From an uncultured Winogradskyella sp. (GTDB lineage: Bacteria; Bacteroidota; Bacteroidia; Flavobacteriales; Flavobacteriaceae), in contig CAJXLB010000001.1 in NCBI GenBank assembly GCA_913055905.1, positions 921,746 through 985,745 on the forward strand: DNA of 64,000 nt. The letters are read 5' to 3'. The notes below the pieces were generated by a model. The model was given only the letters and a program-made list of their open reading frames with translations. It was not told the origin of the DNA and did not search any database. Shown one piece after another: positions 2,997 through 28,283 of this stretch. A program made the translations under genes and the position numbers. Within the stretch, counting starts at the first letter, position 1. Every line of letters starts with the position of its first letter.

Positions 2997-3030
2997 AAAA
3001 ATAGTATTTTCTATTTAAATACTACTATTT
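2997..3030 (-). terminator. AT-rich hairpin at the end of the nucleotidyltransferase gene
   Basis: On the minus strand AAATAGTA pairs with TACTATTT and a T-run follows. The stem overlaps the stop codon at 3025. It is AT-only and so a weaker call. Confidence 0.35.
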
Positions 3031-4056
3031 ATGGCCCTTAAAAATAATTCGCGACACATTTTTTCTGTAGGAGCCGTTGGTTACAAAAAGGTTAAGTCTA
3101 GCAATGACGTCTGATACCATAAATGTATACCACCGACCAATTTGAGAAAACAGCCTGTAGTTTAGTTTCAATTTATACAAATCTTGTGTCAAAGATTTAA
3201 ATAGTGATGGTTTGGTTTTAAAGAGGTCGAAATACAGCTCCCCAAGGTAACAGAACCTTTTGTAATAGGTTGATGTTGAAAATTCACCCAAATTTATGGG
3301 ACCTTGGTTTCTTTGTATTGAAATGCAATCATAAAACGCCTTAAAACTTGCGTTTAGGAAATAATAGGCTTTGTCATTGATTTGCCAGCTCAGGGCCGCA
3401 AATTTATACATGGTACTGTCATCTAGAACGGGAAGCCCACCTTTGAGCTGCAGGTTTGTAAGAGCGTCTCTAACATTAAGTAGTTTCTGATGTTTCTTGT
3501 CGAAAAATTGGCTGTGAATCTCTATAGCGGCTAACTTCTGGTCATTGATAAGACGGTCCATGTGTCGATGTCCTTTAACCGCGTAATTAAAACCACTGAT
3601 CTTTCCGTAGCCATTTTGATGTAAAATAGAGAACGCCTTTTCCGCTGCCTCAGCTGCCACTAATATATCGATATCACCTACCATTCTTTCGGCGGGGTCA
3701 CTAAATATATTGCTGCTGATATAGGCTATGCCTTTTAGAAACACATGCGCAATGTTATGGGCACTGAGTAATTTGGAAATGTCTGCAGCTTGTCGAAGCA
3801 GTGCCTTATTCCTATTCCGATTGATAGCAGTGATTTCCTCGAGATACTCGTCCAATTCCTCAGGGAGGGTATGTAAAAGGCCTTTACGTTTAAGGTTGCA
3901 GTAAAGCGCTGGCAGCATTAAATGTCCACTCCCTTCAACAACAATAGCATCCCAATCAAAATCTGGGTGTTGGAGGATGGTTTCAAGTTCCGATGCTTTG
4001 GTCTCAGGACTCAATATCTTGGCAATTGCACGGTATGTCTCTAATCGTTGGGCCAT
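3025..4056 (-). CDS. Nucleotidyltransferase family protein (NTP_transf_5-like)
   Basis: A 343-residue cytosolic protein. The motif FLKG at residues 106-109 and GDIDILV at 127-133 fit the NTP_transf_5 branch of polymerase-beta-like nucleotidyltransferases, with D128 and D130 as likely metal ligands. The C-terminal 150 residues are helical and of unknown role. It follows the PqqD/HPr-kinase-like gene with a 28-base gap, so it is probably the third gene of a peptide-kinase-nucleotidyltransferase operon. This class of nucleotidyltransferase is known beside HPr-kinase-like genes in some RiPP (for example lasso peptide) clusters. A role in modifying the small peptide, its kinase or its product is inference. 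Confidence 0.7.
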   Translation of the reverse strand: MAQRLETYRAIAKILSPETKASELETILQHPDFDWDAIVVEGSGHLMLPALYCNLKRKGLLHTLPEELDEYLEEITAINRNRNKALLRQAADISKLLSAHNIAHVFLKGIAYISSNIFSDPAERMVGDIDILVAAEAAEKAFSILHQNGYGKISGFNYAVKGHRHMDRLINDQKLAAIEIHSQFFDKKHQKLLNVRDALTNLQLKGGLPVLDDSTMYKFAALSWQINDKAYYFLNASFKAFYDCISIQRNQGPINLGEFSTSTYYKRFCYLGELYFDLFKTKPSLFKSLTQDLYKLKLNYRLFSQIGRWYTFMVSDVIARLNLFVTNGSYRKNVSRIIFKGHK

Positions 4057-4084
4057 GAGCTATAATGGCTCAAAAATACGACTT

Positions 4085-5218
4085 TTAGGAAAGATGATTT
4101 TGCTTTTTAAAGAGTTCTGACACTGTCTCTATCATCTCCTCCATAGCACCATAAGTGAGTTTATAAAAGTTGAGTTGGCCCAGCCAATCTAAAAAGGCTT
4201 GGGCATGCTCTATTCCGGGATGCAACCAAGAATCTGGAATAATAGTTTCCAAGGCTTCCTTTATGGAAATCGCTTCCAATAGTGTTTCGCTATCAGGCGT
4301 ATAGTTGACCAAAACCAAGGTTTGGCAAGGATAATGTAACTGGTTTGGCTGTTTACAGGGCAGATATTTCAAGACGCCTTTTGCCGGATTAAAGGTGATC
4401 TCTGGCAGTGTTTTTAGCTCAGGCAAAAAAGGCTCCAACACCTTAAAGGCCTTTTCCTTTATGGAAATCGCAGCCGGATTGTAATAGATATGGCCATCGG
4501 CTTTACCTAAGGGCGAAATGTCATCAGAGACAAGGTGATAGCCATGCGCCACCAAAAGACTGCACAGCGTACTCTTACCACTGCCCGAATTACCGATAAA
4601 CATGATAGAGGATTGCCCATCCGTTATGGTAGAGCCATGTATAGTGCCTAGCCAATCCGATTCGTGTTTGTTGTGGATAAGATTAGCCACTTCCATGTGG
4701 AATTTACCTTGAATGAAATGGTAATCTGCTTTTGGCACACTACGCAGTACCATTTTATCTTGAAACAAGTTGATATGGTCTGCAGTGAGATACACATCAA
4801 AGGTGGTATCGCTGTGTTCTGTAAACGGGATTTCATAATGCGCCAAGGACGGATGCAGCGCATTTAAGACCTTTTGGTTATCCGCATGTAAGTTGAAGCA
4901 GGAATCCCCAATCTTATAGGATTTGGATAGCTGGCGGTGGCCTTCCTCAAACACCATAGTACTTAGCGGGAGAGAATCTTGATTATGGTTGCAGGCCTCA
5001 AGGTAATTGCTCAGCTGTGTGGCAATGTTTTTTGCTTCTGCCTTGGATAGCGCGTTTAACTGGTTTTGAAAGTCTGTTATTGTGTCACAGCTCAGATACG
5101 CGTCTAAAATGGCTTTAAATTCCGAGCCAACAACGCTGTAGGAATTGGATCTGGAATACCACAATACATAATAATCACCAAAATCATAGTGCAGATTAGG
5201 TGCTAAGGCATTTTTCAA
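4085..5218 (-). CDS. PqqD-like domain fused to HPr-kinase-like kinase
   Basis: A 377-residue protein with two apparent parts. Residues 10-75 have the strand-strand-helix pattern of a PqqD-like winged helix (DYYVLWYSRSNSYSVVG, then helices with spaced hydrophobics), the fold that serves as RiPP recognition element. The C-terminal part resembles the HPr kinase/PEP-carboxykinase fold: IHG near 193-195, a P-loop GNSGSGKST at 209-217 and SDD near 231-233. HPr-kinase-like enzymes in lasso peptide clusters phosphorylate a C-terminal serine of the precursor, and the adjacent 58-residue peptide ends in serine. The first codon is TTG. It lies in the same frame as the peptide gene, after the peptide's TAA and four sense codons, so translation is probably coupled. 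The kinase fold is well supported; the PqqD-like part rests on pattern only. Confidence 0.75.
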   Translation of the reverse strand: MKNALAPNLHYDFGDYYVLWYSRSNSYSVVGSEFKAILDAYLSCDTITDFQNQLNALSKAEAKNIATQLSNYLEACNHNQDSLPLSTMVFEEGHRQLSKSYKIGDSCFNLHADNQKVLNALHPSLAHYEIPFTEHSDTTFDVYLTADHINLFQDKMVLRSVPKADYHFIQGKFHMEVANLIHNKHESDWLGTIHGSTITDGQSSIMFIGNSGSGKSTLCSLLVAHGYHLVSDDISPLGKADGHIYYNPAAISIKEKAFKVLEPFLPELKTLPEITFNPAKGVLKYLPCKQPNQLHYPCQTLVLVNYTPDSETLLEAISIKEALETIIPDSWLHPGIEHAQAFLDWLGQLNFYKLTYGAMEEMIETVSELFKKQNHLS

Positions 5219-5230
5219 AATTAGCTGTAA

Positions 5231-5407
5231 TTAACTTCCTGCAAACGGATTACCTCCTGGGTCTGGCGGTTGTGTTGGAGATTGTGCTTGCGACTTTTGG
5301 GGATTTAAAATCACAAAAGTACCAATCGCCGTTAGGGCAGCGTATTTCCCCATTTTTTGTAGGGCCTCCTTCCGTGTGATTTTATCGTTGGGGGTATTTT
5401 TTTTCAT
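5231..5407 (-). CDS. 58-residue leader-like peptide, candidate modified precursor
   Basis: A short gene with an ATG at 5405-5407 and TAA at 5231-5233. The product has a charged N-terminus (MKKNTPNDKITRKEALQKMG), a hydrophobic stretch near residues 22-34 (YAALTAIGTFVIL), a likely signal peptidase site after SQA near residue 41, and a short tail rich in Pro, Gln and Gly that ends FAGS. It looks like a secreted microprotein or a precursor peptide with a removable leader. The kinase-like gene starts 12 bases after its stop, in the same frame. A terminal Ser next to a kinase of the HPr type is suggestive. No database match could be checked, so modification and secretion are hypotheses. Confidence 0.65.
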   Translation of the reverse strand: MKKNTPNDKITRKEALQKMGKYAALTAIGTFVILNPQKSQAQSPTQPPDPGGNPFAGS

Positions 5408-5545: not shown

Positions 5546-7747
5546 TTATCTCAAAATGATCTTTTGTGTTTTACTGAGGGTGCCATTCGATACCTCTACA
5601 ATGTATATACCACTTGTTAAGGCACTGGCATTAATGGTTTGGGTACTTACATTAGCGTTCAATGTTTGGCTCATTACCGCACGGCCTTGTAAATCATAGA
5701 CTTGTGCCGTACTGGTGGTATCTAGTAGACCAGAAATGACTATTTGTTTATTGGCATTCGCAAAAATAAACAAAGAGTCTAGCTCGTTTTCTACAGTTGA
5801 TAAGGCATTTTCTGCAAATCTTAAGAAAAAGCGTCCGCTACCTGATAACACCGTGCTTGGTGTAATCGTGTAATCACCAGAATTTAATAAAGTAAAAGTA
5901 TTTTCAACGCTATCCTCAAGGATCACATCAATACTTTCTGGAACTACGGAATTGCTGTTTAAGCTAAAGGTCATCTGTTCATTAGGGTTAAGATTCACCA
6001 CTAAAGGTACTACTACATCCGTTAAGTTGGCATAAGGTAAGGACTGGTTAAACAAGGCTATTCCTGCATTATCCTCTACCAAATGCGTATACACGCCATT
6101 GGCGTTTTGATCATAAGCTCCTGTGTCATAGCCAGGGTCTAAGCCTAGGGTATTGATATCCCTAAAATACACGTTGGTTTCATAAGATGTAGACGCTGTA
6201 TTTAAGTTTAGGATGGCATGGGCAAAGTTGTTGGTGTTAGCTGCATTACGTCCTGTAATAAAGTCGTCACTAGTGCCAGTGCGTCTCATTGTAGTTGTAA
6301 ATTCAATACCATCGCCGCCACCTGAAGGCGCCGCTACAAAAAAGCCTTGTCCTGGAGTGATGAAGTATGAATCTATTGGAGTGCCTGGATTTCCAGGGTC
6401 GTCCAGGAAATTAAAATCAATTTGAGTCCAGATAGAACCATCTGTGTCATCCGCATCATAGCCATAGATTCCAAAAAAAGTATTATTTAATAAGTTTGCC
6501 GAATTGGCATTTAAGAAGTCTAAAGCAGATAGGTAACTAGGGTACGGGTTTCCTATAAGATTCCAGAAACTTGTGCCGTCCACCAGAGTTACTGGTACAG
6601 CTCCATTATTTGGTGTGCCTGTAAAAGCTAGCGTTTCACCACCAAAAGCTTGGGTGCCTGCTCTATAGCCTGTACCTGGAGTAATCGCTGTGTTAGCATT
6701 GGTACCTGTATCATAGTTGGTATAGGCATTTGCGACAGGGTTAAAAGGGGCAAATGCGCGTATATTTTCAGATGCTGCCAAAGCCCCTGAGTTTGCTGTG
6801 GCAAAAGGCCCAAAATCTTGACCAGAAACCGGTGAGGCTATTAAATCATTGGTGCCCGTAGGTCCTACTTGTGCCGTGTAGCGGTTGTAGGTGATGTCTC
6901 CAGTATAAGTACCATTATTTATAAAACTAGCGAATTCAGTGCTTGTAGAATTAAGAACTATTGGATCATTTGTTACAGTAAGGGTGTTACCTGACTGTAC
7001 AGTAACAGCTCCACCTGCCTGTATTTCAAGATATGGAACAGTAATATCACTCGTTACATTAGTTGACTGGCCATTAGGTATTGTATATTTACTGGTGATT
7101 TCTAAATCGTCAAAACCAAAATTTTGAAGAGCCCCTTGGTTTGTAGACTGAAATTTCACAGAGGTGATATTTGATATATTACTAGAAGCTGTAAAATTAC
7201 TGCCACTTCCGGTTCCAAAAGTGTAGGAATAATTATTGCCACCTTCATAAGTAAAAGTAAAAGCTATGCTTGCAAAGTCATCATAGGCCTGTCCAGACCC
7301 AAAATCACTACCTCCATCATTAATTTGCCAATCTGAGCCACCACTAACAAATTTAAGTGTAAAGACCGGAGTAGAGCCATCTAAAAACTGAATAAATATC
7401 TCACCATTAATTGTTGTGGTATGACCTACATTTACACTAAATGTGTCACCGGGTTGCATAGCTCTATTAAATGCTCTTTCAGCTGCATATAATCCTCCAT
7501 TTTCGGAATTTATACCAAAACTTAAAGTACTTAATCCTGTTCCGCCAATATATCTTCCACCAGTACCGGATGAAATAAAACTCCAACTTCCAAAACCATT
7601 ACCTCCATTGGTGGTAGTGTTCCAAGTGCCTCCAGGATAATTAGAGGCATCATCAGTTGCTAGAATAAAACTATCTGTACCGAGCTGTGCTTGAACATTT
7701 GTAAATCCAAAAATTAGGGTTAAAGCAAAAATGTAAAACTGTCTCAT
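5546..7747 (-). CDS. Secreted T9SS cargo protein (type A sorting domain), 733 aa
   Basis: Residues 1-20 are a signal peptide (FALTLIFGFTNVQA). Residues 20-215 are glycine- and serine-rich strands, probably a jelly-roll or lectin-like domain, ending FGFDDLEI. From about residue 220 begins a long module shared with the two neighbouring proteins: TYNRY, then NDLIASPVSG, WNLIGNPYPSYL, PGQGFFV, DDFITGRNAA and LDPGYD. The last 80 residues are a type A T9SS sorting domain with VYDLQGRAV, GIYIVEV and a final KTQKIILR. It should cross the outer membrane by the T9SS and be released or anchored after tail cleavage. No catalytic motif is seen, so adhesion or sugar binding is a guess. It is probably transcribed alone. 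Confidence 0.9.
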   Translation of the reverse strand: MRQFYIFALTLIFGFTNVQAQLGTDSFILATDDASNYPGGTWNTTTNGGNGFGSWSFISSGTGGRYIGGTGLSTLSFGINSENGGLYAAERAFNRAMQPGDTFSVNVGHTTTINGEIFIQFLDGSTPVFTLKFVSGGSDWQINDGGSDFGSGQAYDDFASIAFTFTYEGGNNYSYTFGTGSGSNFTASSNISNITSVKFQSTNQGALQNFGFDDLEITSKYTIPNGQSTNVTSDITVPYLEIQAGGAVTVQSGNTLTVTNDPIVLNSTSTEFASFINNGTYTGDITYNRYTAQVGPTGTNDLIASPVSGQDFGPFATANSGALAASENIRAFAPFNPVANAYTNYDTGTNANTAITPGTGYRAGTQAFGGETLAFTGTPNNGAVPVTLVDGTSFWNLIGNPYPSYLSALDFLNANSANLLNNTFFGIYGYDADDTDGSIWTQIDFNFLDDPGNPGTPIDSYFITPGQGFFVAAPSGGGDGIEFTTTMRRTGTSDDFITGRNAANTNNFAHAILNLNTASTSYETNVYFRDINTLGLDPGYDTGAYDQNANGVYTHLVEDNAGIALFNQSLPYANLTDVVVPLVVNLNPNEQMTFSLNSNSVVPESIDVILEDSVENTFTLLNSGDYTITPSTVLSGSGRFFLRFAENALSTVENELDSLFIFANANKQIVISGLLDTTSTAQVYDLQGRAVMSQTLNANVSTQTINASALTSGIYIVEVSNGTLSKTQKIILR

Positions 7748-12358: not shown

Positions 12359-15300
12359 TTAATTCAAGATCACTTTTTCGGTTTTGCTTTGGGTGCTGTT
12401 GCTCAGCTGTACCACGTACACACCAGAGCTGAGTCCGTTAGTGCTTATGGTCTGGGTACGTAAGCTTTTATCTAGAGCCACTTGTTTTACCAAACGCCCT
12501 TGTAAATCAAAGACCGAGGCTGTTGTGTTTTCATTAAGCTGTCCTGCAATAACAATGGTTTTTTCCGCTGTAAATATGGATAGGCCATCTAAAGCAGCCT
12601 CAGGATTGCTTAAGGCATTGCTTTCAAACCGCAGGAAGAACCGTCCGGTACCATTGAGTGCCGTGGCCGGTGTCACGATGTAATCGGTCATTGTCAGCTC
12701 TGTAACGGTATTGGCCACGGTATCGTCCAGATAGACCTTGGTGCCTGCAGGCAGGGTATTGGTACCTAGGCTGAACGTGATTTGTTGCCCTTGGTTGGCC
12801 TTCACGCCTACAGGTATCACCACATCGTTGTAATCGTCATAGTCCAGGGTCTGAACAGCCAATTCAATTCCTGTATTGCCTTCCACCAGATGTGTAAAAA
12901 TACCGTTAGCGTTGCCAAGATAGGCACTAGCATCATAACCAGGGTCCATGCCGCGTGTGGCATTGCTGTTAAAATAGATAATGGTATTAAAGTCTTTGCC
13001 TTCGCTTTGAAGGTTGATATCTGCCCTTGCCACACTCACACTACTTGCGGAGCGGCCTGCGATAAAATCGTCACTGCCAGCTGTGGTTCGCATCGCTGGC
13101 GTAAAGGATACCATTCCGCCGCCCGTTTTGGACTTCACAAAAAAGCCCTGACCTGGAGCGATGTATTCGGTTTCGGATGTATCGTCAATGGTCGCTTGGT
13201 TCCAGATGGTCCAACGTGCTGCTGTAGCGTTATAGCCATAAATGGCCTCAAAGGAGGGTGCTTCAAATTCTGATTTATTTGCTGTAAAGAACGCATCAAA
13301 ATCGAGATAGGACGGAAACGGATTGCCTATTAAGTTCCATGCCTCGGTACTATTGGTGGCTGAACCTACAGTTATCCCTATGTCCACCTGATTTGTAGCC
13401 ACGCTACCTGTAAAGGATAGCGTTTGGTTAGGACTTGACGTTGCAGCTCTGTAGCCCACGCCGCGCGTTAAGGGTCCTGTAGCATTGGAGTCGAAGTTTT
13501 CATAAACTCCTGAATCATTATTAAAGGGTGCAAAAGCGTACAGTGTTGGTGCGCCTAATTGCGACAATAAATTACTGTTCCCTGTCAAAAATACATTAAC
13601 ATCTGCAATGGCCGTGGGGGGCGATACTAGGTCGTTAGAATTAGCAGCAGTCGTGGCATCGGTACCATCAAAATCATTGACATGACGATTATAGGTTACC
13701 GTACCGGTCAAGTTGCCATCCAAAATAAGGCTAGAGTATTGTGTGGAATTGGATTCTAAAGTCAAGGTGTTGAGTAGCTCTAAGGTCGTGCCTGATGTAA
13801 CAATTAATCCTGCGCCTGGCTCCACAATCAAGGTATTACAGTTGGTATTTGTGTCTATAGTGGCATCGCCATTGACAATAGTAATATCATCTGCAAAGGT
13901 GGCAATACCATTAGGATTAGCAGGTGACCAACCGTTGTCATAAACATAAGAGGTGCCAGGTACAACCGTAATGGTGTAGTCTTCGATTTCACCATCTGTG
14001 GAGCCATCACAGGGGCCATTTGTGGGGATTGGAAAAAAGTAATACTGACAGAGCACACGCAAACGCGTATCGCCTAATACGGCATCATTGGGTATGCTAA
14101 TGGCTAAGGGGCTGTTCGCTGTTGGGCCATCCGGACTATCAATGGTTGCACCCAGATCGTAAGTTTCATTAGGGTCGTCAAAGTCGCCATCTTGGTTCCA
14201 ATCGATCCAAGCGTAGCTGTATATTGCAACATTGCCATCGGTATTTATATTAACGGTTAGATTTTCGCTACTGCCACGGGCAACCGTCGTTCCTATGGCT
14301 GTAAAATCGTCGTAGCCACTGCCTTGTCCTGTGGCATTGTTAATGCTTCCAAAATTCACGAGGGTGATGGAGGTTTCAAACGTGGTGTCGCCATCGACAG
14401 CACAATAATCCAATGTGATACTCAGCGGAATCCCTGCGCTCCAATTGCTCCCTTTTCGTGTAAAAATTTCAAAATGGTAGGTGCTTCCAAAGCTAACGTT
14501 GGTGATTTCAACATTTGTTTGGGTGCCTTTAAAGACGATGAATTCATCGGTACTAATTTCGGTACCAGAACCAAAATTGGTACTGGCAAAGTAGTTGGAC
14601 CCATCTCCTGAAGGTACCGCTGTAACCGGACTTTCTTCTCGTGCCACCACCAGGACCTCATCATAGCAACTGCTTAGCGTCCAGTTTAAATCGATATTGC
14701 CGTCCACATAAGTTGCCGTGGCATTGCTGACGTCTAACGGTGTGCTACAACCAGAAATATCCACGATGGAAACATCATCAAGAAACCAATTGTCGCCATC
14801 ATTTTGTTCCATCACAAAAGCGATATATACAACACCAGAATAGGCCGAGAGATCTACCGTCTTTTCGTTAAAGGTACTGCCCAGTTGGGCTTCGTTATAG
14901 GTTTGAAGGGTGGTGAAGCTACTGATGTCCGTTTGTGAGGTTTGGGAAACACGTATGGTGTATTCGGTGTTGTAATCTATGGTGAACTGCTCTCGTGCAA
15001 AAAAGCGCAGTTGCGCTTGTGCCGTTCCCAAATCTATGGCTGGTGTTACCAACCAATCCTGGGCATTACCACCGGACACCACTTCATATTCCACGAAGGC
15101 CGAGGTCGTGCCGGAATTGGCCACGAGTGTAGAGGTGGTCCAGTCGTTTGCTGTACCTAGGCCATTCGCACCACGGTAACTGTTCCAGCAGGGTGGTGGG
15201 AAAACCCCACCCTCAAAATCCTCGGAAAAAGGTAGGGCAAAGGCCGTACAGTTTTCAAAACCGCTCACAGTGATATTGTCTATGCGCATGCGTTCGCCAC

Positions 15301-15826
15301 CGCCATTGTTCCGCATAATGACACGCAGTTCAAGGGTACTGCCATTAAGTAGGTCTTGGCTTGAAATTGTTGCGTCGAAGTCATTGGAAAAACTACCATT
15401 GGTATTGGCTTGGGTCCAGGCACCTCCATCAATGCGGTATTCAATGGTTACGGTATCATTAGGTTCTAGATTATTGCCACCAGTCCCGTTCGATTCTGAA
15501 ACCTCTAGGCTAAAGGACACATCGAAAAAATTGCTGATATCAATAAGAGGGGAGAACCAAATCGCTTCGGTATCCAAATCGCGCCCTTCAAAAATGGCGT
15601 TTCCACCGACGTTAATCACGCTAAAATAATCGTTGGTATTCGCAAATGAGGCATTGGAGACATCGATGGACCAATTGACTAAACTCAAATCTATATTGGG
15701 ATTCGAGCCGCCAGGGCCTGAAGCGCCTTGGCCTTCCTGGCCGGTAAAATCCTCAGAATAGATGGTGCTTTGACCTTGAGCGAATGTGCTTGTTATCAGG
15801 GCTATTAATATTATTATCTTTTTCAT
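12359..15826 (-). CDS. Secreted T9SS cargo with adhesin-like and GEVED domains, 1155 aa
   Basis: Signal peptide 1-19. Residues 20-190 form a jelly-roll-like domain ending MRIDNITVSGF. Residues 197-356 look like a choice-of-anchor J/cleaved adhesin domain (LPFSEDFEGG, DWLVTPAIDL, NWFLDDVSI). Residues 360-475 resemble a fibronectin type III domain, and 475-622 a GEVED domain (WIDWNQDGDF, LRVLCQY, GEIEDYTI). From about 630 the protein has the shared C-terminal module (VTYNRHV, WNLIGNPFPSYL, PGQGFFV, DDFIAGRSA) and a type A sorting domain ending KTEKVILN. These domains point to surface binding rather than catalysis. The gene is separately terminated, and its 5' side faces the divergent polysaccharide locus. 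Confidence 0.92.
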   Translation of the reverse strand: MKKIIILIALITSTFAQGQSTIYSEDFTGQEGQGASGPGGSNPNIDLSLVNWSIDVSNASFANTNDYFSVINVGGNAIFEGRDLDTEAIWFSPLIDISNFFDVSFSLEVSESNGTGGNNLEPNDTVTIEYRIDGGAWTQANTNGSFSNDFDATISSQDLLNGSTLELRVIMRNNGGGERMRIDNITVSGFENCTAFALPFSEDFEGGVFPPPCWNSYRGANGLGTANDWTTSTLVANSGTTSAFVEYEVVSGGNAQDWLVTPAIDLGTAQAQLRFFAREQFTIDYNTEYTIRVSQTSQTDISSFTTLQTYNEAQLGSTFNEKTVDLSAYSGVVYIAFVMEQNDGDNWFLDDVSIVDISGCSTPLDVSNATATYVDGNIDLNWTLSSCYDEVLVVAREESPVTAVPSGDGSNYFASTNFGSGTEISTDEFIVFKGTQTNVEITNVSFGSTYHFEIFTRKGSNWSAGIPLSITLDYCAVDGDTTFETSITLVNFGSINNATGQGSGYDDFTAIGTTVARGSSENLTVNINTDGNVAIYSYAWIDWNQDGDFDDPNETYDLGATIDSPDGPTANSPLAISIPNDAVLGDTRLRVLCQYYFFPIPTNGPCDGSTDGEIEDYTITVVPGTSYVYDNGWSPANPNGIATFADDITIVNGDATIDTNTNCNTLIVEPGAGLIVTSGTTLELLNTLTLESNSTQYSSLILDGNLTGTVTYNRHVNDFDGTDATTAANSNDLVSPPTAIADVNVFLTGNSNLLSQLGAPTLYAFAPFNNDSGVYENFDSNATGPLTRGVGYRAATSSPNQTLSFTGSVATNQVDIGITVGSATNSTEAWNLIGNPFPSYLDFDAFFTANKSEFEAPSFEAIYGYNATAARWTIWNQATIDDTSETEYIAPGQGFFVKSKTGGGMVSFTPAMRTTAGSDDFIAGRSASSVSVARADINLQSEGKDFNTIIYFNSNATRGMDPGYDASAYLGNANGIFTHLVEGNTGIELAVQTLDYDDYNDVVIPVGVKANQGQQITFSLGTNTLPAGTKVYLDDTVANTVTELTMTDYIVTPATALNGTGRFFLRFESNALSNPEAALDGLSIFTAEKTIVIAGQLNENTTASVFDLQGRLVKQVALDKSLRTQTISTNGLSSGVYVVQLSNSTQSKTEKVILN

Positions 15827-16515: not shown

Positions 16516-17559
16516 ATGAAACTACTAATTACTGGAGGTGCCGGATTTATTGGGTCGCACGTGGTGCGGCAATTTGTTACGGCTTACCCAGAATATCACA
16601 TCTATAATTTAGATGCTCTGACCTATGCGGGGAATCTTGAAAATTTAAAGGACGTAGAAACTGCTTCCAATTATACCTTTATCAAAGGAGATATTACCGA
16701 TGCCTTGTTTGTAGACCGCCTATTTAAAACACATCAATTTGACGGCGTCATTCATTTGGCGGCAGAATCACATGTTGATCGCTCCATTACAGACCCTCTG
16801 GCATTCGTAAAGACTAATGTCCTTGGGACCATACATTTGCTCAATGCCTTTAAGGGCTTATGGGGCTCTAATTTTGAAGGCAAACTGTTCTATCACATCA
16901 GTACCGATGAAGTCTATGGCACCTTAGGGGAAACGGGTTTGTTTACAGAAACCACTTCCTATGATCCCAATTCACCTTATTCGGCTTCAAAGGCCAGTTC
17001 CGACCATTTTGTCCGGGCCTATGGCGAAACCTATGGCTTGCCTTATGTGATTACCAATTGCTCCAATAATTACGGGCCTAACCAATTTCCAGAAAAATTG
17101 ATTCCTCTGTTTATTCATAATATCATTCAAAATAAACCATTGCCGGTGTATGGCGATGGCAACTATACGCGCGATTGGCTCTATGTTATCGACCATGCTA
17201 GGGCTATTGATTTAGTCTTTCATCAATGTAAGCAGGGCGAGACCTACAATATAGGTGGCTTTAATGAATGGAAAAATATCGATTTGGTCAAATTGCTTTG
17301 CGATAAGATGGACCAACGTTTACATCGACCAAAGGGGCAGTCCGAGCAACTCATCACTTATGTCAAAGATCGACCAGGCCATGATAAGCGCTATGCTATA
17401 GATGCGTCCAAGATTAATGAGACTTTAGGATGGCAGCCCAGTGTTACCTTTGAGCAGGGCTTAGAAAAAACGATTGATTGGTATCTAGGTAATGCTGAAT
17501 GGTTAGCGCATGTGACGTCGGGTGAATATCAATCGTATTATGAGAGGCAGTATAGTTGA
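16516..17559 (+). CDS. rfbB: dTDP-glucose 4,6-dehydratase
   Basis: The second enzyme of dTDP-L-rhamnose synthesis, turning dTDP-glucose into dTDP-4-keto-6-deoxyglucose. It is an extended SDR protein of 347 residues, the usual length. Visible motifs are the NAD site GGAGFIGSHV at residues 7-16, HLAAESHVDRS near 83, STDEVYG near 134 with the catalytic Asp and Glu, and YSASKA near 160 with the active-site Tyr and Lys. It opens the polysaccharide locus behind a TAGATTTG promoter box. Unlike the tightly overlapping rfbA-rfbC-rfbD, it is separated from rfbA by repeats and a four-helix-bundle gene. Confidence 0.97.
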   Translation: MKLLITGGAGFIGSHVVRQFVTAYPEYHIYNLDALTYAGNLENLKDVETASNYTFIKGDITDALFVDRLFKTHQFDGVIHLAAESHVDRSITDPLAFVKTNVLGTIHLLNAFKGLWGSNFEGKLFYHISTDEVYGTLGETGLFTETTSYDPNSPYSASKASSDHFVRAYGETYGLPYVITNCSNNYGPNQFPEKLIPLFIHNIIQNKPLPVYGDGNYTRDWLYVIDHARAIDLVFHQCKQGETYNIGGFNEWKNIDLVKLLCDKMDQRLHRPKGQSEQLITYVKDRPGHDKRYAIDASKINETLGWQPSVTFEQGLEKTIDWYLGNAEWLAHVTSGEYQSYYERQYS

Positions 17560-17625
17560 GGGGTTAGAGGGTTAAGAGGTTAGAAGGTTAAGAGGTTATA
17601 AGGTTAAGGGGTTATAGGTTAAAAT
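17560..17625 (+). repeat. GGTTA-type short repeats after rfbB
   Basis: Units such as GGTTAAGAGGTTAGAAGG run from the rfbB stop to near the next gene. Similar but C-rich units (AACTTTATAACCTTTTAAC) occur at 18025-18063, on the far side of the four-helix-bundle gene. Confidence 0.75.
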
Positions 17626-17653
17626 GCTTGTAAAATTAATTAACAATAAATAA

Positions 17654-18010
17654 ATGAAGACGATAAAATCCCATAAGGATTTAAAGGTTTGGCAGGAGTC
17701 CATGGATTTTGTTGTTAAAATCTACGCTTTAACGGAGCATTTTCCTTCAAATGAAGCTTTCGGTTTAACGGCACAGTTGCGAAGGGCTTCAATTTCTATT
17801 CCGTCCAATATAGCAGAAGGGGCAGGACGAAAAGGAGCAAAAGAATTGTCCAGATTTTTATTTATAGCCTTGGGTTCGCTTTCTGAAGTGGAAACACAAT
17901 TGGAAATTTCCCAAAGACTCGGTTATGTCAACGATTTAGATGACATCAACACAACTATTTATTTTATTAGAAACATGATTTCAAAATTAATCAAGAGTAT
18001 AAACAATTAA
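17654..18010 (+). CDS. Four-helix-bundle protein (23S rRNA IVP/S23 family), copy 1
   Basis: A 118-residue all-helical protein. The family pattern is clear: KDLKVWQESMDFVVKIY at the start, LTAQLRRASISIPSNIAEGAGR in the middle, and RFLFIALGSLSEVETQLEIS later. The family takes its name from frames inside intervening sequences of 23S rRNA genes; members are also scattered through Bacteroidota genomes and their function is unknown. Here the gene interrupts rfbB and rfbA and has degenerate repeats on both sides, which suggests it arrived as a separate unit. A second member lies at 31321, also inside a sugar-nucleotide operon. Confidence 0.9.
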   Translation: MKTIKSHKDLKVWQESMDFVVKIYALTEHFPSNEAFGLTAQLRRASISIPSNIAEGAGRKGAKELSRFLFIALGSLSEVETQLEISQRLGYVNDLDDINTTIYFIRNMISKLIKSINN

Positions 18011-18070
18011 TCCTGTAATGATATATAACTTTATTACTAACTAACTTTATAACCTTTTAACTATAAATCC

Positions 18071-18940
18071 ATGAAAGGAATCATTCTCGCAGGAGGCTCA
18101 GGCACACGCTTACATCCCTTAACCTTATCGGTTAGTAAACAGCTTATGCCTGTTTATGATAAGCCCATGATTTACTATCCTTTATCTACGCTGATGTGGG
18201 CTGGTATACGGGAAATATTAATCATTACGACACCACAGGATTTACCCTTGTTTCAGCATTTGTTAGGAGACGGTACCCAATTAGGGTGTCAATTTCAATA
18301 TGCCGTGCAGGAAGAGCCTAAGGGTCTAGCTGAGGCATTTCTCATCGGTGAGGATTTTATAGGCGGTGATAAAGTGGCGCTCATTTTAGGCGATAACATC
18401 TTTTACGGAACCGGCTTGGCAGAGCTATTACAACAGAACAATGACCCTGATGGTGGTATCATTTATGCCTACCATGTTCATGACCCTGAGCGCTATGGTG
18501 TGGTTGATTTTGATGCGGAAGGTAAAGCCATATCCATAGAGGAAAAACCACAACGCCCAAAATCCAATTACGCGGTTCCGGGAATTTACTTCTATGACAA
18601 TGCTGTTGTGGATATCGCTAAAAATATAGCCCCAAGCCATCGTGGTGAACTGGAAATTACGGATGTCAATAAAGCCTATTTGGAACAAGGCAAATTACAG
18701 GTGAGTGTTTTGGATAAAGGGACCGCCTGGCTAGATACGGGAACCTTTAAATCCTTAATGCAGGCAGCACAATTTGTACAAGTTATTGAAGAACGCCAAG
18801 GTCTCAAAATTGGAGCCATAGAAGAAGCTGCCTTTAGAATGGGTTATATCAATGAAGACCAATTTAGAGCCTTAATAGCACCTTTGACCAAAAGTGGCTA
18901 CGGAAAGCAATTGTTAAGCCTCATAGACCGCAACGCATGA
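18071..18940 (+). CDS. rfbA: Glucose-1-phosphate thymidylyltransferase
   Basis: Joins dTTP and glucose-1-phosphate to give dTDP-glucose, the first step of the rhamnose pathway. It has 289 residues, the usual length. The nucleotide-binding signature [11 protein letters not shown] is at residues 8-18, followed by [25 protein letters not shown] near 110 with the metal-binding Asp, and the [13 protein letters not shown] segment near 157. The stop overlaps the start of rfbC by four bases (ATGA). Confidence 0.97.
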
Positions 18941-19485
18941 CCATTATAGACACCCCATTGGAAGGTTGTTTTGTGCTTGAGCCAACAGTTTATGAGGATA
19001 GCCGTGGCTATTTTCTAGAAACTTTTAACCAACTCGATTTTCGAAAGCTAACCGGAATTGAGGTACCATTTGTTCAGGATAATGAATCCTTTTCCACCAA
19101 GGGTGTGTTACGTGGGTTGCATTATCAAGAAGGTGCTTATGCCCAAGCCAAATTGGTACGTGTCGTTCAAGGTCATGTGCTCGATGTCGCTGTTGATATC
19201 CGTCCAAATTCGCCAAGTTTTGGCCAGCATTTTTCTACGGAACTCTCAGAAACCAACAAACGGCAATTGTTCATTCCACGTGGTTTTGCCCATGGTTTTG
19301 TGGTGCTCAGTGATTCCGCTTTATTTTCCTATAAATGCGATAATTATTACCATAAAGCTGCGGAAGCTGGCATTCGCTATAATGATCCTGAGTTGAATAT
19401 TGATTGGCGCTTATCAGAAGACCAATTGATGTTATCAGATAAGGATAAGCACCTGCCCTTGTTCCATGAAATATCCTTTGAATAA
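18937..19485 (+). CDS. rfbC: dTDP-4-dehydrorhamnose 3,5-epimerase
   Basis: Epimerises the 4-keto sugar at C3 and C5. The 182-residue cupin protein has the expected [12 protein letters not shown] near residue 19, the RGLHYQ motif near 59 with the catalytic His, and [10 protein letters not shown] near 112. It overlaps rfbA by four bases and its TAA shares bases with the ATG of rfbD (TAATG), so the three genes are translationally coupled. Confidence 0.97.
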
Positions 19486-20342
19486 TGGTCATAGCGGTTA
19501 CAGGTCAAAAGGGACAACTGGGTTCGGAATTTAAAGTGCTAGCTAAAGACTACCCACAGTATCAGTTTTTGTTTACGGATAAGACCGATTTGGATATTAC
19601 CAACAAAGATGCAGTGGATGCCTATTTTAAAAACCATAGCCTCGATGTTTTGATTAATTGTGCGGCTTATACGGCTGTCGATAAAGCCGAATCAGAATCT
19701 GAACGTGCTGAAGCTATTAACCATTTGGCCGTGCGTTATCTCGCTGAGGCTTGTAAGGTTCATGGCGTTAAAATGGTTCACATTTCTACCGACTATGTGT
19801 TCGATGGAAAGGCTTCTCGCCCTTATAAGGAGTTAGATAGTCCCAATCCGCAAGGTGTGTATGGCCAAAGCAAATACGCTGGGGAACAAGCTTTAAAACG
19901 TGTAAATCCTTTTGGAAGCTGTATCATTAGGACCTCATGGTTGTATAGTTCATTTGGTCATAACTTTGTGAAGACCATGTTATGCTTGGGACGCGAACGT
20001 GAAGCGATTAAGGTCGTCAGTGATCAGTTGGGCTCACCAACCTATGCTGCGGACTTGGCAGAGGCTATTATGGCTATCATACCTCAGCTGAAAAATTCCA
20101 CAGTTGAAACGTACCATTATGCTAATTCAGGGTACTGTAGTTGGTACGAGTTTGCTACAACTATTTTTGACATGAAAGCTATCGCCTGTGACATAACACC
20201 GATTAAAACGTCTGAGTATCCAACAGACGCACAGCGCCCAAAGTATTCCGTTCTGGATACCTCTAAAATTCAAAAGACTTTTGGTCTAGGTATTTCAAAC
20301 TGGCAAACGAGTTTGCAGCGCTGTTTACAGGATTTGGATTAG
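19485..20342 (+). CDS. rfbD: dTDP-4-dehydrorhamnose reductase
   Basis: The last step to dTDP-L-rhamnose. This 285-residue SDR protein shows the NAD(P) site TGQKGQLGSEF at residues 6-16, NCAAYTAVDKAE near 60, STDYVFDG near 102 and YGQSKYAGE near 126 with the active-site Tyr and Lys. It closes the rhamnose operon. A 600-base repeat-rich gap follows before the legionaminate genes. Confidence 0.97.
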   Translation: MVIAVTGQKGQLGSEFKVLAKDYPQYQFLFTDKTDLDITNKDAVDAYFKNHSLDVLINCAAYTAVDKAESESERAEAINHLAVRYLAEACKVHGVKMVHISTDYVFDGKASRPYKELDSPNPQGVYGQSKYAGEQALKRVNPFGSCIIRTSWLYSSFGHNFVKTMLCLGREREAIKVVSDQLGSPTYAADLAEAIMAIIPQLKNSTVETYHYANSGYCSWYEFATTIFDMKAIACDITPIKTSEYPTDAQRPKYSVLDTSKIQKTFGLGISNWQTSLQRCLQDLD

Positions 20343-20394
20343 GACAGACTAAGTGTTGTTTTTTGTCGTAGGAATACAGTTGTTCAAGACATGT

Positions 20395-20880
20395 TAACTG
20401 TGGTTCGTGTATGGTGAGGTGGTAGTAAGGTTATAAGGTTAGGTGGTTATAAGGTTATGTGGTTATAAGGTTATAAGGTTATATAGTGATTGGTGAGTAG
20501 TGAGTAGTGAGATGGTGTCTATTTTTTTGGTGTTGGGTATTGGGTTTTTTTGTTGTGTTGTGATACGGTTATATGGTTATATAATGATTCGTGAATGGTG
20601 AACCGTGAATCGTGAATTGTGATTCGGTGATGCGTTGGTTTCGTGAATCGTGAATGGTGAATCGTGATTTGTAATCCGTAATTCTTATTTGACTGCCGAC
20701 CACGGACCAAAGACCAAGCACCAAAGACCATTCATCTCTTTTCTCGTCTCTCTTTTCTCTGTTCTATTGAACAGATTCTTCGGTCCCTACGTTCCCTAAT
20801 AATGACATTTGAGCTGTGATTCGTGAATCGTAATCCATAATCCATGAACTTTGAGCATAAGTTCGACTTTCATAACCATC
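20395..20880 (+). repeat. Composite intergenic repeat between rfbD and legB
   Basis: GGTTATAAGG- and GTGAATCGTG-type short units (20400-20690), a GACCAAGCACCAAAGACC block (to 20730), a CT-rich block (20730-20762) and ATTGAACAGATTCTTCGGT (20766-20784), then GTGATTCGTGAATCG units. It has the same block order as the copy at 11772. No gene is seen. Confidence 0.8.
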
Positions 20881-20906
20881 TATAAAATATTTCAGATTAA
20901 TTATTT

Positions 20907-20914
20907 TAGTTTTG
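20907..20914 (+). promoter_or_regulatory. Promoter -7 box upstream of legB
   Basis: TAGTTTTG fits TAnnTTTG and lies 52 bases before the chosen legB start. It probably drives the whole legB-legF operon. No -33 TTG is visible. Confidence 0.4.
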
Positions 20915-20966
20915 TTGACAGGTCAAAGCCTAGTCCTTTCGACCTTAATTGAACCCAATAGCGCAC

Positions 20967-22154
20967 ATGGATATATTGTCATTAATCGGCAGACAACAGG
21001 AACTGTTTCAAGACGACATAGCAACACACGAACAGGCTTTAAGGGAGGCCGTTTCCCAATCGTCCTTCTTAGTGCTCGGTGGTGCCGGAACCATAGGTCA
21101 GGCCGTGGTTAAGGAAATCTTTAAGCGCCAACCACTCAAGCTTCATGTCGTGGATATCAGTGAAAATAATTTGGTGGAATTGGTGCGGGACCTCCGCAGT
21201 TCCTTGGGGTATATCCAAGGTGATTTCCAAACCTTTGCTCTGGACATTGGCTCCGTAGCCTACGATGCCTTTATTGCCAATGACGGCCACTACGATTACG
21301 TTCTTAACTTATCGGCTTTAAAACACGTGCGCAGTGAGCGCGACCCCTATACACTGATGCGTATGATTGAGGTGAACATCCTCAATACTGAAAAAACCGT
21401 GAAACAGGCCATTGCTAAGGGTACAAAAAAATACTTTTGCGTTTCTACAGATAAAGCGGCCAATCCCGTGAATATGATGGGTGCGTCCAAACGGATTATG
21501 GAGATGTTCTTGATGCGACAAAGCGAACAGCTGCCCATTTCCATGGCACGTTTTGCCAATGTGGCCTTTTCCGATGGCTCGCTACTGCATGGCTTTGACC
21601 AGCGCATTAAAAAGAATCAGCCCCTAGTAGCGCCTAAGGACATCAAACGCTATTTCGTCATCCCAAAGGAATCTGGTGAGCTCTGTCTCATGTCCTGTAT
21701 CTTTGGGGAGAACCGCGATATCTTTTTTCCCAAACTAAGTGAGCATTTGCATCTCATGACCTTTGCAGATATCGCTATAAAATATCTTAAGGCTCTCAAC
21801 TACGAACCTTATCTGTGTAAGGATGAGGATGAGGCTAGAGCATTGGTTAAAACCTTACCACAACAAGGCCAATGGCCCTGTTTATTTACGACCAGTGATA
21901 CCACGGGCGAAAAGGATTTTGAGGAGTTCTTTACAGCTAACGAAACCTTGGATATGGAGCGCTTTCACAATTTAGGGGTCATCAAGAACGACGCTGGATT
22001 TGAGGCTGATAAGTTGGAAGCCTTTACAGGAGCGATTCAACAGTGGCGCGGGGCTAAGCTGTGGACCAAAAGGGACATCGTAGCACTATTCAAGACCATG
22101 CTGCCTAATTTCGACCATAAGGAAACCGGTAAATACTTAGACAGCAAGATGTAA
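20967..22154 (+). CDS. legB: UDP/GDP-GlcNAc 4,6-dehydratase, legionaminate pathway
   Basis: Predicted first committed step of legionaminic acid synthesis: 4,6-dehydration of nucleotide-linked GlcNAc. The product is about 395 residues. The NAD site is GGAGTIGQAV near residue 33; STDKAANPVNMMGASKR near 164 carries the conserved Asp-Lys pair, with Met where classical SDR enzymes have Tyr, as in the PglF/FlaA1/CapD group. I chose the ATG at 20967; a TTG 18 bases upstream in frame would add six residues. It starts an operon of seven genes with gaps of four bases or overlaps. Pathway assignment rests on the neighbours; on sequence alone it could be a generic CapD-like dehydratase. Confidence 0.87.
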   Translation: MDILSLIGRQQELFQDDIATHEQALREAVSQSSFLVLGGAGTIGQAVVKEIFKRQPLKLHVVDISENNLVELVRDLRSSLGYIQGDFQTFALDIGSVAYDAFIANDGHYDYVLNLSALKHVRSERDPYTLMRMIEVNILNTEKTVKQAIAKGTKKYFCVSTDKAANPVNMMGASKRIMEMFLMRQSEQLPISMARFANVAFSDGSLLHGFDQRIKKNQPLVAPKDIKRYFVIPKESGELCLMSCIFGENRDIFFPKLSEHLHLMTFADIAIKYLKALNYEPYLCKDEDEARALVKTLPQQGQWPCLFTTSDTTGEKDFEEFFTANETLDMERFHNLGVIKNDAGFEADKLEAFTGAIQQWRGAKLWTKRDIVALFKTMLPNFDHKETGKYLDSKM

Positions 22155-22158
22155 GCCT

Positions 22159-23298
22159 ATGTTTAAAGACACCATTGCCTTTATTCGCGACCTATACCAA
22201 ACCGAGGATTTTATACCCTTGCACGAACCGCGCTTCATCGGGAACGAAAAGCAGTATTTGGAAGACTGTATCGATTCGACCTTTGTGTCCAGCGTGGGTG
22301 CCTTTGTCGATCGCTTCGAAGCAGACATGGCCCAATTCACAGGGGCAAAGCATGCCATTGCTACCGTCAATGGTACGGCCGCCCTACATGTGGCCTTGCT
22401 CTTGGCCGGTGTGGAACGCGATGATGAGGTCATTACCCAACCCTTAACCTTTATTGCCACCTGTAACGCTTTAAGTTATATTGGGGCGCATCCGGTGTTT
22501 GTGGACGTTGATAAAACCACCGTGGGCCTTTCGGCCGAAAAACTGGAGCACTTCTTAAAGCACGAGACTATCATGGTAAATGGTGCCTGTGTTAATAAGA
22601 CCACTAAGAACAAAATTAAAGCTGTCGTGCCCATGCATACTTTTGGGTTTCCGGCCGACATAGCAGGCATCGCCCAGCTCTGTGAGCGCTATAATATCGC
22701 CCTTGTTGAAGATGCCGCAGAATCTCTGGGCAGTTATTATAAAGGCCAGCACACAGGTACTTTTGGGCTCTTGGGAACCTTGAGTTTTAACGGTAATAAA
22801 ACGATTACCACTGGCGGCGGAGGTATGATTTTAACCAACGACAGTAACTTGGCAAAGGCGGCCAAACATTTGACCACCACGGCTAAGGTACCACACCCTT
22901 GGAATTACGAGCATGATAGGATAGGCTTTAATTACCGCTTGCCCAATCTCAATGCCGCACTGGGTTGTGCCCAATTGGAGTCCCTGCCGCAATATTTGGA
23001 GAATAAACGGGACTTGGCCAATATCTACAAGTCTTTTTTTGAATCTCAAGACGTCATCTTTATAGACGAACCAAAGGATACCCGAGCCAACTTTTGGTTA
23101 AACGCGCTGCTGTTAAAGAACAAGAGCGAGCGCGATGCATTTTTAAAGGAAACCAATGATAATGGGGTCATGACTAGGCCCATTTGGAAATTAATGAATA
23201 AATTGCCTATGTTCCAACACGCCCAGACCGCTAATTTGGATAATGCCGAATGGCTGGAGGAACGCATCGTAAACATACCGAGTAGTGTCAGGATTTAA
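22159..23298 (+). CDS. legC: LegC-type PLP aminotransferase
   Basis: A 379-residue DegT/DnrJ/EryC1-family aminotransferase. It would place the amino group at C4 of the 4-keto sugar made by LegB. The PLP lysine is in SFNGNKTITTGGGG near residue 218; NGTAALHVAL near 75 and EDAAESLGSYY near 185 are the other family marks. It starts four bases after legB and its end overlaps the next gene by 14 bases. The neighbours point to the legionaminate branch. Confidence 0.92.
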   Translation: MFKDTIAFIRDLYQTEDFIPLHEPRFIGNEKQYLEDCIDSTFVSSVGAFVDRFEADMAQFTGAKHAIATVNGTAALHVALLLAGVERDDEVITQPLTFIATCNALSYIGAHPVFVDVDKTTVGLSAEKLEHFLKHETIMVNGACVNKTTKNKIKAVVPMHTFGFPADIAGIAQLCERYNIALVEDAAESLGSYYKGQHTGTFGLLGTLSFNGNKTITTGGGGMILTNDSNLAKAAKHLTTTAKVPHPWNYEHDRIGFNYRLPNLNAALGCAQLESLPQYLENKRDLANIYKSFFESQDVIFIDEPKDTRANFWLNALLLKNKSERDAFLKETNDNGVMTRPIWKLMNKLPMFQHAQTANLDNAEWLEERIVNIPSSVRI

Positions 23299-23917
23299 GA
23301 ACATACATCTCTTTGGGTACTCAGGCCATGCCTATGTGGTTATCGATGTGGCTTTGGCCAATAACTTTAAAGTGCTAGGCTATTTTGATAAGTCAGTTAA
23401 GGCTGCGAACCCGTATGCTATAGCCTACCATGGTTATGAGCAGGACCTGGATATCAAGACCATCATTAAAACGGATTGTGCCTTTCCGGCTGTTGGATTT
23501 AATAGGCTGCGAAAACAGCTAGTACAGATGATGGAAGATATAGAGGTAAAGCAACTCAGCTTGATAGACCCCTCGGCCTACGTTTCCCCAAAAGCAGTGA
23601 TTGGTGTATCTACCTTGATTGCACCGCAGGCCACCGTGAATAGTATAGTTAAATTAGGTAAAGGTGTTATTGTCAATACAGCGGCTATTGTGGAGCACGA
23701 GTGTACCATTGGCGACTTCTCCCATATAGCCCCAGGCGCTGTGCTTGCAGGCAATGTAACAGTAGGGGAGCAGGTTTTTATTGGGGGAAATGCTACTGTC
23801 AAGGAAGGCGTTTCCATTGGAGCGGGCGCGACTATTGGCGCAGGTGCCGTCGTATTAACCGATATTCCAGCAGGGGAAACTTGGGTGGGAAATCCGGCAA
23901 AACCAATGCGTAAATGA
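23285..23917 (+). CDS. legH: NeuD/PglD-type sugar O- or N-acetyltransferase
   Basis: A 210-residue protein. The N-terminal half is a Rossmann-like sugar-binding domain (HLFGYSGHAYVVIDVA near residue 8). The C-terminal half is a left-handed beta helix of hexapeptide repeats (residues about 95-200) with the probable catalytic His in VEHECTIGDFSH. In the legionaminate pathway this enzyme acetylates the 4-amino group. The start is GTG inside the end of legC, and the stop overlaps neuB-like legI (ATGA). A NeuD-like O-acetylation role is an alternative. Confidence 0.87.
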   Translation: MSGFKNIHLFGYSGHAYVVIDVALANNFKVLGYFDKSVKAANPYAIAYHGYEQDLDIKTIIKTDCAFPAVGFNRLRKQLVQMMEDIEVKQLSLIDPSAYVSPKAVIGVSTLIAPQATVNSIVKLGKGVIVNTAAIVEHECTIGDFSHIAPGAVLAGNVTVGEQVFIGGNATVKEGVSIGAGATIGAGAVVLTDIPAGETWVGNPAKPMRK

Positions 23918-26072: not shown

Positions 26073-26076
26073 TGCC

Positions 26077-27803: not shown

Positions 27804-27848
27804 TTGAGCTAGCTTTGGCCGTGTAAGCTTATTATTTTGTTTCTACCG

Positions 27849-27872
27849 TACTTTTTTGTGCCCAAAAAAGTA
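27849..27872. repeat. TACTTTTTTG/CAAAAAAGTA palindrome
   Basis: A perfect ten-base inverted pair with loop TGCC. The same palindrome and ten or more flanking bases occur at 28812-28835, and a variant with a seven-base loop at 33146-33172. Placed 45 bases after legF it could act as a terminator. Confidence 0.7.
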
Positions 27873-27988
27873 GGCAAAAAAGCCTTTTGCTGTCGAAGGT
27901 ATTTTTGAGGGCGTTACCCTCAAAACCATGACCAAAAGTCTAAATGACGTCCAAGGCTTCCGTCATTCTTAACGACTTTTGCCCATCT

Positions 27989-28146
27989 ATACTGCCGACA
28001 GCATTTCCCGACGTTGTCGGGATTTGGTTTGGAAAACGGTTCTTTGCTAACAGTATAAACAATAGAAAAGGAAAAGACTAGGGATTATTATACGTCTCCA
28101 CTCTCAGATTGAACGTAATTTATAGACGGCCTACCAAGCGACTTCA
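27989..28146 (+). repeat. Direct repeat, partner at 29349-29507
   Basis: About 158 bases beginning near TACTGCCGACAGCA and containing the small hairpin CCCGACGTTGTCGGG, then AACAGTATAAACAATAGAAAAG and ending at GGCCTAC. The partner lies 1.36 kb downstream with a handful of differences. Confidence 0.8.
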
Positions 28147-28280: not shown

Positions 28281-28283
28281 AGG

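Follow-up and report, generated by a model that had tools for sequence, protein, structure and literature searches.

The DNA analyzed here, called the window below, is a stretch of 64,000 nucleotides from an uncultured Winogradskyella sp. (assembly GCA_913055905.1, contig CAJXLB010000001.1, positions 921,746 to 985,745). A cassette on its reverse strand encodes a precursor-like peptide, a fusion of a domain resembling the recognition element (RRE) of ribosomally synthesized and post-translationally modified peptides (RiPPs) with an HprK-like kinase, and a nucleotidyltransferase-like protein of the NTP_transf_5 family. Cargos of the type IX secretion system (T9SS) are encoded upstream (Table 1). 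The arrangement, strand and spacings of the three open reading frames (ORFs) as first read, starting with a peptide of 58 residues, were confirmed by the ORF calls, with 12 bases between the peptide and kinase genes and 28 bases between the kinase and nucleotidyltransferase genes. In the window, the cassette is flanked by the T9SS cargos and by genes for a TauE-type protein and a small protein of outer-membrane-like character. The initial annotation had described a minimal three-gene locus; this description was too narrow, because the peptide follows T9SS cargos with a specific domain and surface-polysaccharide genes adjoin roughly half of the kinase loci. Genomes, loci and contigs of the comparison sets are given below by G, L and C numbers.

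Table 1. Features of the cassette and its surroundings, in window positions
Feature	Position	Strand	Basis
Precursor-like peptide, 58 aa	5231..5407	-	ORF call, homologs, alignment, pN/pS
Codon of Ser43, candidate modified residue (7th after NP motif)	5279..5281	-	82-peptide comparison
RRE (PqqD-like)-HprK-like kinase fusion, 377 aa, TTG start	4085..5218	-	Family matches, AlphaFold2 (AF2), Foldseek
RRE-like domain, residues 1-76, three strands and three helices (predicted)	4991..5218	-	AF2 and Foldseek
HprK-like kinase part, about residues 188-377	4085..4657	-	28-kinase alignment; TIGR04352 match 188-369
NTP_transf_5 nucleotidyltransferase-like protein, 343 aa	3025..4056	-	PF14907; 23 homologs aligned
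T9SS type-A cargo, 733 aa, 138-base gap upstream of peptide	5546..7747	-	TIGR04183 3.2e-11, over cut-off
Cognate cargo domain of about 400 aa (residues 231-638 of the 733-aa cargo)	5834..7057	-	45-cargo homology group
Second cognate T9SS type-A cargo, 1121 aa	8277..11642	-	Domain-profile match C1:930313-931512, 457.5 bits; TIGR04183
Third cognate T9SS type-A cargo, 1155 aa; choice-of-anchor J and GEVED domains	12359..15826	-	Profile match C1:934389-935600, 453.5 bits
Adjacent surface-polysaccharide locus, outside the cassette proper	16516..60760	+	ORFs; partial Pfam scan; reading of sequences

The peptide and its conserved hydroxyl residue

The window peptide possesses a charged N-terminus, a 13-residue hydrophobic stretch and a Pro/Gly tail with a terminal Ser, and no family match was obtained for it in the Pfam and NCBIfam scans. 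An intact peptide ORF was situated 10-21 bases before the kinase gene in 28 of 30 loci, the window included, with a nucleotidyltransferase-like ORF downstream. Of the remaining two, L007 had a broken peptide copy, and L017 was cut by a contig end, with its peptide on a second contig (L099). Because an intact copy precedes the kinase in 28 of the 30 loci, the short ORF is more than a chance reading frame. Moreover, it is under purifying selection: the pN/pS of 28 peptides was 0.20 overall, 0.10 in alignment columns 10-36 and 0.31 in the tail. A conserved stretch at columns 10-36 with a looser tail is the pattern of a putative recognised leader and a variable core. In the window peptide, residues 1-41 form the predicted leader or signal peptide (ITRKEA..KMGKYAALTA..NP), S39-Q40-A41 is a cleavage-like site, and the predicted core is Q42-S58 (17 residues; the median for the predicted released cores is about 12). 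The peptide tails differ between genera.

The residues around the cleavage-like site were compared in 82 peptides, which are the 84 reading frames minus the broken copy (L007) and a cut duplicate (L050). A signal-peptidase-I-like site, [AS]-Q-[AS], lies ahead of the core in 62 of the 82, in agreement with the earlier remark that the leader looks exported. Two positions past the cleavage-like site, at the seventh residue after the NP motif, a hydroxyl residue was present in all 82 peptides (Ser 80, Thr 1, Tyr 1); counted by distinct tails, the figures were Ser 72, Thr 1 and Tyr 1 of 74. The initial annotation had pointed instead to the C-terminal Ser as the target. Although the window copy does end in Ser, the last residue is Ser in only 8 of the 82 peptides and Asp in 42, and the C-terminal Ser was rejected as the phosphosite. 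Export by the twin-arginine (Tat) route was rejected as well, since RR was found within the first 35 residues in none of the 84 peptides although TatC occurred in 4 of 4 genomes; the general secretion (Sec) route was therefore preferred.

Some peptides are longer (85-156 residues) and carry extra tails past the conserved part (L078 8680-9150, L050 1363-1650, L040 1384-1659 and L048 1387-1644). The extra tail in L050 contains Lys-Pro-Gly repeats.

The fusion enzyme and the nucleotidyltransferase-like protein

The kinase half of the fusion protein contains a P-loop and matched HprK_rel_A (TIGR04352) with an E value of 1.4e-18 and 67 bits, below the cut-off of 200, and Hpr_kinase_C with an E value of 5.5e-5, also under its cut-off. 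In three relatives, the scores with TIGR04352 were 41.8-60.6 bits. The best AF2 model of the whole protein had a pLDDT of 90.8 and a pTM of 0.87, and the five models ranged from 90.8 to 67.0. With this model, Foldseek returned PEP carboxykinases (PEPCK) as the best and HPr kinases (HprK/P) as the next matches. These family and structural matches were in agreement with the HPr-kinase-like half recognised at the outset. In addition, H194, K215, D232 and D233 were invariant in an alignment of 28 kinases.

Residues 1-93 alone gave a best AF2 model with a pLDDT of 85.3 and a pTM of 0.71. Foldseek against the PDB placed chains of RiPP proteins at ranks 1-9, namely lasso B1 proteins with leader peptides (5v1u, 5v1v and 6jx3) and a sactipeptide enzyme (5why and 5wgg), which we take to be CteB, with E values of 0.069-0.77, none below 0.001, and probabilities of 0.72-0.99. 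TigE, ThcOx, the heterocyclases 4v1v and TruD, and MibB, all presumably RRE-bearing, followed at lower ranks, interspersed with unrelated chains. A PqqD-like N-terminus had been claimed initially, with an unrelated predicted fold named beforehand as grounds for refutation; the predicted fold supports the claim and the sequence comparisons do not. The assignment of the N-terminal domain as a PqqD-like RRE is thus supported by the predicted fold, not by sequence. In one genome (G166; L067 9233-10367, +) the kinase was in two pieces (298 and 32 aa) with peptide and nucleotidyltransferase genes intact, owing to sequencing error or decay.

The third protein matched PF14907 (NTP_transf_5) with an E value of 1.4e-30 and 107.1 bits against a gathering cut-off of 31.2, as expected from its first naming. 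K108-G109, R124, D128-x-D130 and E179-x-H181 were invariant over 23 homologs. One copy of this family was found in the genome of the window and none in the six cassette-negative genus members searched.

Distribution of the peptide, kinase and nucleotidyltransferase

Conservation of the peptide-kinase pairing had been set beforehand as a test of the RiPP-like reading, and the pairing was conserved. Among 149 relatives, the kinase was found in 61 genomes and the peptide in 59; both occurred together in 59, and the peptide alone in none. The two kinase-only genomes were G045 (79% complete) and G145 (72%), in which the kinase is truncated by a contig end. In the family sample, 32 of 299 genomes had the peptide (E < 1e-4), and 28 of those 32 had the kinase. 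Several peptides were present in some genomes, the highest number being five, in G028, a genome with two kinases. The kinase of G249, G275, G193 and G181 lies away from any found peptide, which suggests that the enzymes can work in trans.

In the phylum sample of 395 genomes, with four candidates scored per genome, the kinase search matched 210. Five genomes matched at E < 1e-70 (G000, G011, G507, G715 and G257); the best E value of the other 205 was 1.7e-12 or weaker, and those listed were mostly short P-loop stretches. Two of the five, G507 and G715 from one other genus, had the kinase and nucleotidyltransferase genes with a different small protein upstream and no adjacent peptide (L113 1489-2619 and L114 1489-2652, -), the rest of the genome being unsearched for the peptide. 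The divergent member G071 (L080 4916-7219, -) had the gene order peptide, nucleotidyltransferase, kinase, instead of peptide, kinase, nucleotidyltransferase.

Association with one class of T9SS cargo

In the larger loci, the upstream partner was defined as the longest ORF of at least 100 aa within 1200 bases upstream of the peptide in the same region. For 45 of 58 peptides this partner was a same-strand cargo of one homology group, even with the last 95 residues removed. The adjoining cargo of the window matched the other 44, and the shared part, about residues 231-638, was located just ahead of the sorting tail, while the N-terminal parts were variable. The distance between cargo and peptide was at most 357 bases in 44 of the 45 and 1049 in one. 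A TIGR04183 tail was detected in 44 of the 45 (last 130 residues, E 0.001), and all three cargos of the window scored above its cut-off. A domain alignment was built from 40 of the 45 cargos, and no Pfam or NCBIfam match to the domain of about 400 residues, termed cognate here, was obtained at E 0.001 in any of the 40 members scanned. No PPDPGG-like motif was found in the cargos. Furthermore, among the smaller loci (L001-L030), all 29 that contain a peptide, the window included, had the cognate domain upstream of it.

The other 13 of the 58 peptides comprised three behind another same-strand gene (L072, L074 and L081), four with an opposite-strand neighbour (L082, L150, L154 and L158), four at contig ends (L087, L151, L160 and L161), the second of a tandem (L078), and one behind a short masked fragment resembling the domain end (L093). 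Moreover, orphan peptides that have no kinase nearby were situated directly behind cognate cargos in L147, L148, L149, L155 and L156, with gaps of -46 to 17 bases. The last of these belongs to G061, whose kinase-adjacent peptide gene (L007 2700-2801, -) is broken by a stop and whose copy in L156 (C7:950239) is intact.

The window genome contains five cognate domains, three in the tandem cargos before the peptide and two elsewhere, among 43 T9SS type-A tails. In 39 hand-picked genomes, in which all domain candidates were scored, the scores fell into two groups, at least 144 bits (cognate) and at most 126.6 bits (generic). All 12 cassette-positive genomes of this set had cognate copies. Among its eight cassette-negative genus members, five had a single generic copy of no more than 87.1 bits, G012 had none, and G009 and G014 had cognate copies.

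With a domain threshold of E <= 1e-38, domain and kinase occurred together in 60 of the 149 relatives, the kinase alone in one (G145), the domain alone in three, and neither in 85. For the 299 family genomes, domain and peptide were both found in 30, the peptide only in two, the domain only in five and neither in 262; counted by genus, the values were 22, 2, 5 and 207, respectively. As 12 candidates per genome were scored for the relatives and 6 for the family genomes, the copy numbers are lower bounds and absences may be misses. Two scores of the family sample, 137.3 bits in G378 and 139.9 bits (part) in G322, lay near the gap, and therefore cognate and generic domains were less sharply separated across the wider family than across the 39 genomes. 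The tie of the peptide and kinase set to one class of T9SS cargo, observed as an association, is the surprising part of this study.

Surface-polysaccharide genes and other features

The locus that follows the third cargo contains nucleotide-sugar, flippase, glycosyltransferase, Wza-like and Wzc-like genes. Seven of its ORFs were scanned with Pfam and six gave a family; the remaining names came from reading the sequences. Homologs of 14 proteins of this locus were found by tblastn (E 1e-15) in 21 of 41 kinase loci, compared with none of 20 kinase-free loci and none of 20 author-chosen control regions of the same genomes. Within the locus, a single ORF at 37680-39437 (+) encodes an ATP-grasp-like part fused to a low-molecular-weight phosphotyrosine phosphatase (PF01451), and a 249-aa ORF that matched no Pfam family is located on the opposite strand (33264-34013, -).

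At the start of the window, two near-identical tandem ORFs are present at 319-612 and 620-883 (+), the first being a GIY-YIG protein (PF01541, E 1e-15), and a tRNA-Arg gene adjoins the pair at 861-935. Two small tandem ORFs that resemble this pair (likeness by eye, unscanned) are seen near an orphan peptide in L072 (4753-5503).

Proposed mechanism and alternative explanations

We lean, with modest confidence, towards a linear RiPP-like and LPP-like phosphopeptide cassette dedicated to a subgroup of T9SS cargos, where LPP stands for the linear polyphosphorylated peptides of Bacillota, the nearest known system (2026; PMC13381572). The RRE half would bind the leader, which would also be a Sec-type signal peptide, in the cytoplasm, as the predicted fold and the leader conservation suggest. 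The HprK-like half would then phosphorylate the conserved hydroxyl residue (Ser43), in line with its fold, its invariant His-Lys-Asp-Asp and precedent. The NTP_transf_5 protein may add a nucleotide or sugar to the phosphate, as PsmN appears to do for pseudomycoidin; the chemistry is weakest at this step. General secretion and signal peptidase would export the peptide and release the core, a route that would account for the apparent lack of a peptidase or transporter of its own in the cassette. Finally, the product may work with the T9SS cargos bearing the domain of about 400 residues, one set serving several cargos per genome (five here). The RiPP-like reading of the initial annotation was largely supported by the pairing, the predicted RRE fold and the leader, with a candidate target residue other than the C-terminal Ser.

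Several observations weigh against this proposal. The RRE was matched by predicted fold only, with a best E value of 0.069 and unrelated chains mixed in from rank 10; PqqD was not among the Pfam and NCBIfam matches listed (25 of 27 in one of the scans), and a PDB-sequence profile search gave 17 weak matches, none of them an RRE. LppK, the LPP kinase, was inactive on S3T and S3Y (PMC13381572), and two peptides here have Thr or Tyr at the conserved position. Deletion of lppN had no visible effect in the LPP system (PMC13381572), and therefore the nucleotidyltransferase chemistry is uncertain here. Four peptide-positive genomes (G262, G400, G408 and G420; 82-92% complete) showed neither the kinase nor the nucleotidyltransferase. 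Furthermore, the domain occurred without kinase or peptide in the genus members G009 (99% complete), G014 and G044, and without the peptide in the family genomes G174, G192, G247, G378 and G417. Kinship among the genomes, which are not independent, inflates the Fisher significance of the co-occurrence, and the p-values are further weakened by the limited number of candidates scored and by the use of peptide-linked cargos to build the domain profile.

Among the alternatives, the core, modified or not, might be a ligand or chaperone that binds the domain non-covalently and aids folding, translocon passage or anchoring of the cargo. The peptide-domain association and the several cargos per peptide are consistent with this, the variation of the tails between genera speaks against it, and we consider it possible but doubtful. 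The peptide might also be a free secreted LPP-like phosphopeptide, acting as a signal, antimicrobial or matrix component, that merely shares operons with the cargos and has no molecular link to them. Polysaccharide genes in about half of the kinase loci fit such a role, since LPP and paeninodin, whose roles are unknown according to the LPP authors, are both often found in capsule loci (PMC13381572). However, the orphan peptides sit directly behind cognate cargos and the co-occurrence of domain and cassette spans genera, which makes a free product unlikely.

Co-inheritance or co-transfer of cassette and cargo subtype as one operon, with no functional dependence, would account for the domain-only genomes (3 of 149 and 5 of 299) and gains from the non-independence of relatives. 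It is nevertheless improbable, because orphan peptides elsewhere in the genome again lie behind cognate cargos; five of the eight cassette-negative genus members had one generic copy and one had none, yet G009 and G014 had cognate copies. The boldest possibility is that the modified core is a covalent adaptor, an acceptor for the T9SS sortase that links cognate cargos to surface polysaccharide. The cargos of P. gingivalis are joined to lipopolysaccharide (LPS) via a seryl-bearing sugar (PMC13086638), the universal hydroxyl residue lies close to the predicted mature N-terminus, and polysaccharide genes lie in the neighbourhood. Type-A cargos of F. johnsoniae, however, can also reach the medium (PMC12618676), and the window genome has 43 type-A tails against five cognate domains, so that an adaptor role is highly improbable. 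Just as remote is its detailed form, in which the enzymes would load the serine with a phosphate-linked glycan or precursor, the peptide would leave the cell by means of its leader or signal peptide, and the sortase would join the cargos to its free N-terminus.

The favoured phosphopeptide cassette would provide a genetic handle on peptides of the HprK/NTP-transferase type, tied by genome context to a definable set of secreted proteins, and it points to a possible additional level of type IX secretion. It also delimits a cargo domain that has no name in Pfam or NCBIfam, and it shows a leader that seems dual, being both an RRE-recognised leader and a signal peptide. The association hints at an uncharacterised step in making or attaching surface proteins; if the adaptor role were true, a RiPP-type peptide would be a structural part of protein sorting.

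Comparison with known systems

No description of such a cassette was found among the papers listed from the open-licence text of PubMed Central, judged by title and the start of the abstract. PF13471 (Transglut_core3), which we take to be the B2 leader-peptidase family of lasso clusters, was found in none of the 20 cassette genomes searched, in accordance with the lack of a lasso protease noted at first. No macrolactam cyclase (C protein) was recognised by eye in the ORF lists of the window, where no family search was made. A lasso cluster was rejected, given the result for PF13471 and the unconserved C-terminal Ser.

The lasso-tailoring kinases carry a His-Lys-Asp-Asp motif (PMC9266682), which the kinase here matches by motif and not by alignment. 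Paeninodin and pseudomycoidin resemble the present case in that an HprK-like kinase and an annotated nucleotidyltransferase act on a ribosomal peptide (PMC9266682), but their C-terminal Ser target is not conserved here (8 of 82). For HprK-related kinase A (TIGR04352), the match covers the C-terminal half of the fusion protein and leaves out its RRE-like N-terminal part. The anchoring system of P. gingivalis shares the T9SS cargos and has a serine-bearing acceptor (PMC13086638); in contrast, its abstract mentions no cassette of peptide, kinase and NTP_transf_5 protein, and the linkage is hypothetical here.

The LPP clusters of Bacillota encode an HprK-like kinase, an RRE, an NTP transferase, a peptidase resembling signal peptidase I (SpI-like) and a transporter; the signal-peptidase-like enzyme releases a core whose Ser3 receives several phosphates from LppK (PMC13381572). 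The cassette shares with them the HprK-like kinase with His-Lys-Asp-Asp (H194, K215, D232 and D233 here), an NTP transferase gene (PF14907 here, LppN being compared by description only), an RRE, a conserved N-terminal leader with a variable tail, the lack of a cyclase in the cassette, a Ser shortly past a signal-peptidase-type site, and a polysaccharide-locus neighbourhood. Neither an SpI-like peptidase nor an MsbA-like transporter was noticed within the cassette, with no family search in other loci or genomes. The differences are that the RRE is fused to the kinase here and is a discrete protein in LPP, that the LPP leader motif is of the YxxPxVLxHQxIxFETxxS type whereas [YW]xxPx[LVIFA] was found in none of the 84 frames here, and that the host, to judge by its T9SS, belongs to another phylum and the partners are T9SS cargos. 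As the discrete RRE and the leader motif were not matched, the cassette was not filed as LPP. In outline, it nevertheless resembles an LPP system.

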